DNA of 39,133 nucleotides. Source: Bacteroidota bacterium (GTDB lineage: Bacteria; Bacteroidota; Bacteroidia; UBA4408). Both the position numbers and the translations under genes were made by a program. Below are positions 1 through 1,645 of this stretch, one piece after another (position 1 is the stretch's first letter; each line of letters begins with the position of its first letter). The DNA lies in NCBI GenBank assembly GCA_963169745.1, contig CAUJCU010000015.1:1-39133 (forward strand), in the 5' to 3' direction. Below the pieces are notes generated by a model. It did no database searches, was not told where the DNA came from, and saw nothing but the letters and a program-made list of their open reading frames with translations.

Positions 1-1645
1 ACTTTAAAGCTGCGCCACCGGCTACTGTAATTCCTTTCCACATTTCTTTGCAGGCTGCTTTAAGCACCGAGCCATTTTCTATAGTTAATGTGCAGTTAGG
101 CATTACATATATTGATGTTTGCGGTAATAGTTCAACAATTAAACTGCTTGTAATTGTTAAATTCATATCAACCACAATGTTTCCACCCAATACCACATGG
201 TAATATGGTCCGCCTGTGCCGGGCCAGCCGGTTACATAAAACCCGGGGCTAAGCACATTGTTGGTTGACAATGTATTAGCAAAAATCTGACTCAGATAAA
301 TATCATTTGTGGTGTTGTTATCATCTTCAAAACCGTTGGCAAAAAAAGTATATTCTGTACCATTGGCACAGCAAGGCTCTACATATAAATAGCCGGGTAG
401 CAAACAAGGAGAACTTTGATTGCTTGTTACTTCAACAGTTCCATAGCCCGGCCAAGTGTTAGGATTCCAAGTAACAATAATTTGGTTGCCTATATTAGTG
501 CTATAAGTACCACCTGTTACAGTCCAATAGTATGTAACACCATTTATAGGATTAGCAATGGTGTATGTACTTGTGTTACCATTGCAGTTACTGGTATTGC
601 CAGCTATTTCAATAGTTTGTTCAGCGATTACAGTAATTGTTAAATTTGCGTTTCCGCTACACCCACCAGGTAAAGAAGCAAGTGCTGTGTATGTAGTAGT
701 ACTGCTTGGCGCTGCTACGTTAAGCGGATTTCCAATTCCTAATGAATTGCCATTTTGAAACCATTCAACACTTACTCCTGCCGGAACAGATGCGCTTAAA
801 TTAACAATAGCAGTGCCTTCGCAAATAGTTAAGTTATTTGTTAAAACAGGTACCGTATCATACACAGTGTAATTTTGAGTAAATTGTGTAGTTCCGCAAG
901 CATTGCTTAAATTAAGAGTTACTGTATAATTACCTGAATTGTAATAAGGATTTAATCCAACTGCAGGGTTGGTAAGTTGGTTGAACATACCTTGTGTTAA
1001 AGTTTGATAACCATTTCCGTCTCCAAAGTCTATTGTTGAATTACTTAGGTCTAAAGGTACTGTTGATGGGTCAAAATTAAAATATATTTTAGCATAACTC
1101 GCACAGCCAACATAAGGCGGAATAAAACTTCCTACAGGTGCCGATGCCAGTACGTACAAAGTTGCTACATTCATACCTTGTGATAAATTCGGATTATTAT
1201 TATCATTAAACCAAACCTCATAGACACCGGGAGTATTAAATGCAGTTGTAGGAAAAGAATAGGTATTAATATCCCCTAAAACCACATTACTTGTCCCGAT
1301 TGAAAAAGGAGTTCCACTACCCGCAATAGAGGCAAACCAAAACAAATTAATTGGAGAACCATTTGGAGCGTACCCCTCACAAATATCAGCAAACATTGTT
1401 ACAGTATCTGAGGCACAAATTGTTTCATTTTCTGACATAGAAGGATAAAACAGAGTGTAATGATAGCAAGTTGCGTTAGACGAACTTACAATAAATAAGC
1501 TAAAAAGAAACGGAAGAAGTATCTTTTTTAGTTTCCTTACCCCCCCCCCATGAGGGTGTTTAAAGATGCTTACAGCGATGTTATGTTGCTTTCTGCTGTC
1601 ATTAAAAATGTACTTTGCAGGATTAAAAGTAGTAAATTTTTTCAT
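1..1645 (-). CDS. Large secreted surface protein with Ig/PKD and beta-helix modules, likely T9SS cargo (partial, 3' end beyond the window)
   Basis: The minus frame from the ATG at 1645-1643 is open to the window edge (548 codons, no stop found on reading every codon). Residues 1-38 are polar and include a Gly run encoded by ten Gs. A signal peptide then follows: a basic RKLKK, a hydrophobic core, and SSSNA as probable cleavage region. The mature part is rich in Thr, Asn, Gly and Tyr. It holds a PKD-like stretch (IDFGDGNG, then SGNYTVTL) and Ig-like modules with paired cysteines (TICEGTAIVNLSASVPAG; YYWTVTGG). The last visible part, with LTIENGSVLKAAC followed by MWKGITVAGG, looks like the start of a parallel beta-helix common in Bacteroidota surface proteins. 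A T9SS C-terminal sorting domain would lie outside the window, so the export route is inferred. Function is unknown; adhesion or gliding are possible roles. No gene precedes it closely and no consensus promoter box was found upstream. Confidence 0.8.
   Translation of the reverse strand, partial: MKKFTTFNPAKYIFNDSRKQHNIAVSIFKHPHGGGVRKLKKILLPFLFSLFIVSSSNATCYHYTLFYPSMSENETICASDTVTMFADICEGYAPNGSPINLFWFASIAGSGTPFSIGTSNVVLGDINTYSFPTTAFNTPGVYEVWFNDNNNPNLSQGMNVATLYVLASAPVGSFIPPYVGCASYAKIYFNFDPSTVPLDLSNSTIDFGDGNGYQTLTQGMFNQLTNPAVGLNPYYNSGNYTVTLNLSNACGTTQFTQNYTVYDTVPVLTNNLTICEGTAIVNLSASVPAGVSVEWFQNGNSLGIGNPLNVAAPSSTTTYTALASLPGGCSGNANLTITVIAEQTIEIAGNTSNCNGNTSTYTIANPINGVTYYWTVTGGTYSTNIGNQIIVTWNPNTWPGYGTVEVTSNQSSPCLLPGYLYVEPCCANGTEYTFFANGFEDDNNTTNDIYLSQIFANTLSTNNVLSPGFYVTGWPGTGGPYYHVVLGGNIVVDMNLTITSSLIVELLPQTSIYVMPNCTLTIENGSVLKAACKEMWKGITVAGGAALK
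1540..1549 (-). repeat. Homopolymer of ten G (minus strand) inside the 5' end of the surface-protein gene
   Basis: Ten consecutive C on the plus strand lie 94 bases inside the coding region and before the signal peptide. With ten bases the frame is open. With nine, the codon right after the tract becomes TAA. With eleven, the frame runs about a dozen codons to a TAG. Either slip therefore abolishes the protein, as expected of a phase-variable contingency tract. A sequencing or assembly miscount of the run cannot be excluded. Confidence 0.85.

Follow-up and report, generated by a model that had tools for sequence, protein, structure and literature searches.

Whether a run of ten guanines that separates the start codon of a surface-protein gene from its signal peptide acts as a translational switch is the question raised by the start of the window, the whole analysed stretch of 39,133 nt that makes up the initial 39 kb of contig C15 (genome of 2.99 Mb in 24 contigs). 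The placement of the ten Gs, as given in a preliminary description of this DNA, was borne out: the tract follows a leader of 32 codons, its first G lying 96 nt past the A of the start codon, and the open reading frame translates in the order MKKFTTFNPAKYIFNDSRKQHNIAVSIFKHPH-GGG-VRKLKKILLPFLFSLFIVSSSNA-TCYHY... (Table 1). One hallmark of slipped-strand phase-variable genes is a repeat long enough to slip (at least eight G/C) inside the translated region, and the G10 tract has this length and position. Based on the sequence comparisons below, the tract is probably a contingency locus for slipped-strand translational phase variation of an Ig/PKD-type surface protein. Slipped-strand mispairing at replication would add or delete one G, such a gain or loss would shift the frame between leader and signal peptide, and the protein would be on at 10 and 13 Gs and off at 9 and 12, with cells within a population switching. 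Frequent slippage of the tract in this organism, export of the protein to the surface (probably through the T9SS) and selection for switching are inferred.

Table 1. Features of the surface-protein gene in the window, and G/C tracts in unrelated secreted genes of other genomes of the family
Feature	Location	Strand	Remarks
Surface-protein gene	2..1645	-	548 codons present; 3' end lost past the contig start
Start codon ATG of the surface-protein gene	1645-1643	-	frame open to the contig start
G10 homopolymer tract, proposed slippage switch	1540..1549	-	ten C on the + strand
Leader MKKFTTFNPAKYIFNDSRKQHNIAVSIFKHPH, apparently translated, 32 codons, 5' of the tract	1550..1645	-	frame open from the ATG
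Second ATG, its G being the tract's first	1549..1551	-	in the signal-peptide frame at 8 or 11 G
Signal peptide region RKLKKILLPFLFSLFIVSSSNA	1469..1536	-	limits approximate, set by eye
G9 tract	G006:C25		MKTNFIYKI-GGG-LLTLLFFVFFNKITVFAQ; in frame
C9 tract	G007:C246		22-residue leader, PPP, signal-peptide-like segment; in frame
C10 tract	G005:C104		out of frame; frame restored at 9
G13 tract, behind the signal peptide	G006:C99		out of frame; frame restored at 12

The consequences of slippage were followed by altering the tract length in silico and translating from the upstream ATG. With 10 and 13 Gs the frame stayed open across the signal peptide and as far as the end of the contig; nine Gs placed a stop directly behind the tract (product of 35 aa), and eleven led to a TAG 12 codons past it (product of 48 aa), in agreement with the stops described earlier for these two lengths. 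In the window gene, the protein frame has no ATG, GTG or TTG from the tract up to the point where the signal peptide ends, and a translation start downstream of the tract was thus rejected. The earlier claim that only ten Gs (or ten plus multiples of three) give an exported protein holds for frames read from the upstream ATG, but leaves out a second ATG that abuts the tract, which is formed by the preceding CAT and the first G (C-ATG-GGG). A tract of 8 or 11 Gs puts this ATG in frame and would give MGGGVRKLKKILLPFLFSLFIVSSSNA..., a short form that reads MGG(G)VRKLKKILLPFLFSLFIVSSSNA and presents an ordinary-looking signal peptide. The full product is therefore lost from the upstream ATG at both 9 and 11 Gs, but the tract ATG reopens the frame at 11.

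These frames allow for a three-state switch, in which lengths of n = 1 mod 3 would yield the long-leader form, 2 mod 3 (8, 11) the short form and 0 mod 3 none, the tract altering the N-terminus or the level of the protein instead of acting as a pure on/off device. We regard this version as unlikely, although it refines the contingency-locus reading and its probability overlaps with that of the latter. Eleven Gs bring the tract ATG into frame in both genomic copies of the gene (see below), as do eight in the window copy, the resulting signal peptide is compact, and the missing Shine-Dalgarno sequence does not exclude this start, since Bacteroidota initiate translation without one (PMC6847099). 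However, the context of the tract ATG is poor, with C at -3, a position at which A favours initiation in Bacteroidota (PMC6847099), compared with G at -3 of the upstream ATG, and the overlap between an ATG and a G tract can be a coincidence.

On inspection of the translation, the N-terminal segment KKILLPFLFSLFIVSSSNA resembles a signal peptide. The protein was shown to contain an Ig_7 domain (PF19081, CHU_C associated) at aa 265-339 (E 6e-9), followed by a PKD_6 match at aa 344-409 with a score below the cut-off. In total, 130 T9SS sorting domains (TIGR04183/PF18962) were identified in the genome; the window gene is cut before its C-terminus. The product is probably an Ig/PKD-type surface protein and T9SS cargo.

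A paralogue is located at the start of contig C6, encoding a protein that is 88% identical and shares the leader, with a G10 tract at the same place. Across the 32 leader codons, the two copies differ by four synonymous and five non-synonymous changes (pS 0.24, pN 0.06), compared with pS 0.16 and pN 0.06 in the mature part, corresponding to pN/pS ratios of ~0.26 (from nine substitutions only) and ~0.39, respectively. Since the differences favour synonymous sites, the leader looks to be translated from the upstream ATG under protein-level constraint, small as these numbers are. A block of 113 nt around the tract and signal peptide (window 1458-1570) is identical in both copies, compared with ~8% divergence in the rest of the gene, which suggests recent gene conversion. 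Because the tract falls within this block, its equal length in both copies does not represent independent evidence. That both copies carry ten Gs, without any length difference between them, is evidence against a switch. The shared length, being one event given the identical block, also suits a neutral origin, i.e. a G run that arose by chance in a leader that is dispensable, propagated by duplication and gene conversion with no selected switching, which we consider improbable in the light of the tract surveys described below.

Both contigs open with the same 140 nt (window 1-140 and G000:C6:1-140), and the 3' ends of contigs C21 and C22 (L142 and L143) carry matching T9SS sorting tails with 141 identical nt in common. 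Contig ends shared in this way are usual where an assembly breaks at a repeat, and the C21 and C22 tails are plausibly the missing 3' ends of the two gene copies. Such breaks, at which both copies lie, and the error-prone nature of homopolymers raise the possibility that the true length is other than ten and the apparent frame accidental. This explanation appears very improbable, as both copies read ten, both are in frame and the tract lies 1.5 kb from the break.

The length of the run was compared with chance expectation. The tract is the sole G/C run of at least eight in the window, and an equal match count was obtained in 1 of 100 shuffles of the window. Genome-wide, nine G/C runs of at least eight were found, including three of ten, two of which are those in the two copies of the gene. 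A first-order Markov estimate for the whole ~3-Mb genome gives 0.85 runs of at least ten by chance, compared with the three observed, a figure that is compatible with a neutral run. The rarity originally attributed to the run is thus evident within the window but weak at genome scale, and length alone is weak evidence, because the Markov estimate already yields 0.85 such runs; the position and recurrence of the tract are stronger evidence than its length. As for other leader switches in this genome, no leader tract was scored among the five G8 runs, the G9 run on C16 was rejected as being internal to a long ORF and the G10 run on C22 as lacking an ATG-started frame through it. This third G10 run (G000:C22:34764-34773; L012) is positioned a short distance 5' of a small ORF that lacks an ATG start (TTG is possible) and may belong to a 5' UTR or a promoter.

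Homologues of the leader were sought in the same genome, the family, the order and 395 genomes of the class, and none was found except in the C6 copy; weak matches were chance-like or confined to the signal-peptide region. Similarly, no orthologue of the gene was detected in the family (eight genomes, which represent the entire order set) or in the three other species of the genus, and a scan of contigs of named relatives returned a single match, distant and C-terminal. The family contains 20 G/C runs of at least nine, and four of these, in other genomes, fall close to the N-terminus in secreted genes that are unrelated (Table 1). Three of these four genes encode T9SS sorting tails, and the fourth encodes PKD domains. 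The recurrence of the same plan in unrelated genes, both in and out of frame, argues against a neutral run.

Tracts were then scored with a classifier demanding an ATG at most 150 nt upstream of the tract, an ORF of at least 150 aa in one of the three tract states, and a hydrophobic segment just after the tract with none following, random positions from the same loci serving as the control. In the family, 5 of 20 tracts were scored as leader, tract and hydrophobic segment, compared with 18 of 951 random positions (P=6e-5). The class sample yielded 11 of 67 tracts of at least ten (57 of 3403 random positions; P=4e-8), or 6 of 27 when one tract per genome was retained (45 of 3279; P=2e-6). Bacteroidia tracts of at least ten G/C thus lie in a leader before a hydrophobic export segment roughly 10-20 times as often as random positions do, an enrichment in both family and class that speaks against a neutral origin of the run. 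The hits L140, L082 and L138 are doubtful, and the assignment of L138 (G127) as ON was rejected, as the classifier had used a far ATG, and reading from the start codon common to the two paralogues leaves each copy out of frame. The in-frame share was given no weight, because free slippage and false positives would both produce it.

Tract length does vary between close gene copies in other Bacteroidia. Paralogues in G033 carry C10, C11 and C12 at one position, and those in G127 carry C12 and C16, in each case with conserved flanks; the frame state of single G033 copies is uncertain, because some loci contain masked stretches (N). With regard to the distribution of such runs, G117, G109, G120, G084 and G059 display dozens to hundreds of match positions for G runs of at least ten, and many Bacteroidia genomes display none; some runs at contig ends are possibly sequencing artefacts (G109:C20). 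Overall, the on/off switch put forward in the preliminary description is favoured by the leader constraint, the second copy, the unrelated secreted genes, the enrichment and the paralogue lengths, whereas its claim for ten Gs leaves out the tract ATG and its argument from rarity is weak at genome scale.

Several characterized systems resemble the proposed switch. Neisseria opa genes, present in several copies per genome, possess pentamer repeats within the region encoding the signal peptide. They share with the present gene a switch in the export-signal coding region, silencing of a surface protein by frame loss and multiple copies per genome, but the repeats are pentamers inside the signal peptide, whereas here a G homopolymer lies between leader and signal peptide. 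Poly-G tracts of at least eight are established switches in Campylobacter, including C. jejuni (PMC6321876), and the simple sequence repeat loci of Campylobacter and Helicobacter likewise combine a run of ~8-13 G/C in the reading frame, frameshift on/off control and surface-related products (PMC6321876, PMC2823697); they differ in belonging to another phylum, while the present genome has few tracts (nine of at least eight G) and the cargo is of the Ig/PKD type, probably secreted by the T9SS. The available part of a survey describes 5' homopolymers as a general device for poly(A)/(T), reporting A/T and not G/C tracts, and the 5' poly(A) tract of Listeria inlA, from another phylum, is similar in that a frameshift near the 5' end leads to a very short truncated product (PMC2831843). 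Bacteroides invertible promoters also make surface components of Bacteroidota phase-variable, but by site-specific DNA inversion instead of slippage, and it is mainly for inversion that Bacteroides is treated in the available part of a recent review (PMC11868660).

Searches of the open-access literature yielded no account of T9SS cargo whose phase variation depends on a G/C tract; the mechanism is classical, and its lineage and cargo setting seem not to have been described previously. We tentatively propose, at not quite even chances, that Bacteroidia harbour a widespread, little-described phasome in which G/C tracts of an N-terminal leader control whether T9SS surface proteins are exported, the window gene being a member that may be three-state. 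Such a phasome would represent the slippage-based counterpart of the Bacteroidia invertible promoters, phase variation in Bacteroidota having so far been described mainly as DNA inversion. If G/C slippage gates T9SS proteins across environmental Bacteroidia, such genes would regularly be mistaken for broken ones in assemblies, and heterogeneity of the cell surface (relevant to phage escape, attachment or gliding, for instance) would become testable from tract lengths in reads.

Finally, runs of C10-C12 were observed directly or a few bases before an ATG at L120 (G033:C23), L118 (G033:C20) and L102 (G105:C20). One of these three genes has a signal-peptide-like start, and the tracts possibly act at the level of initiation or the promoter.
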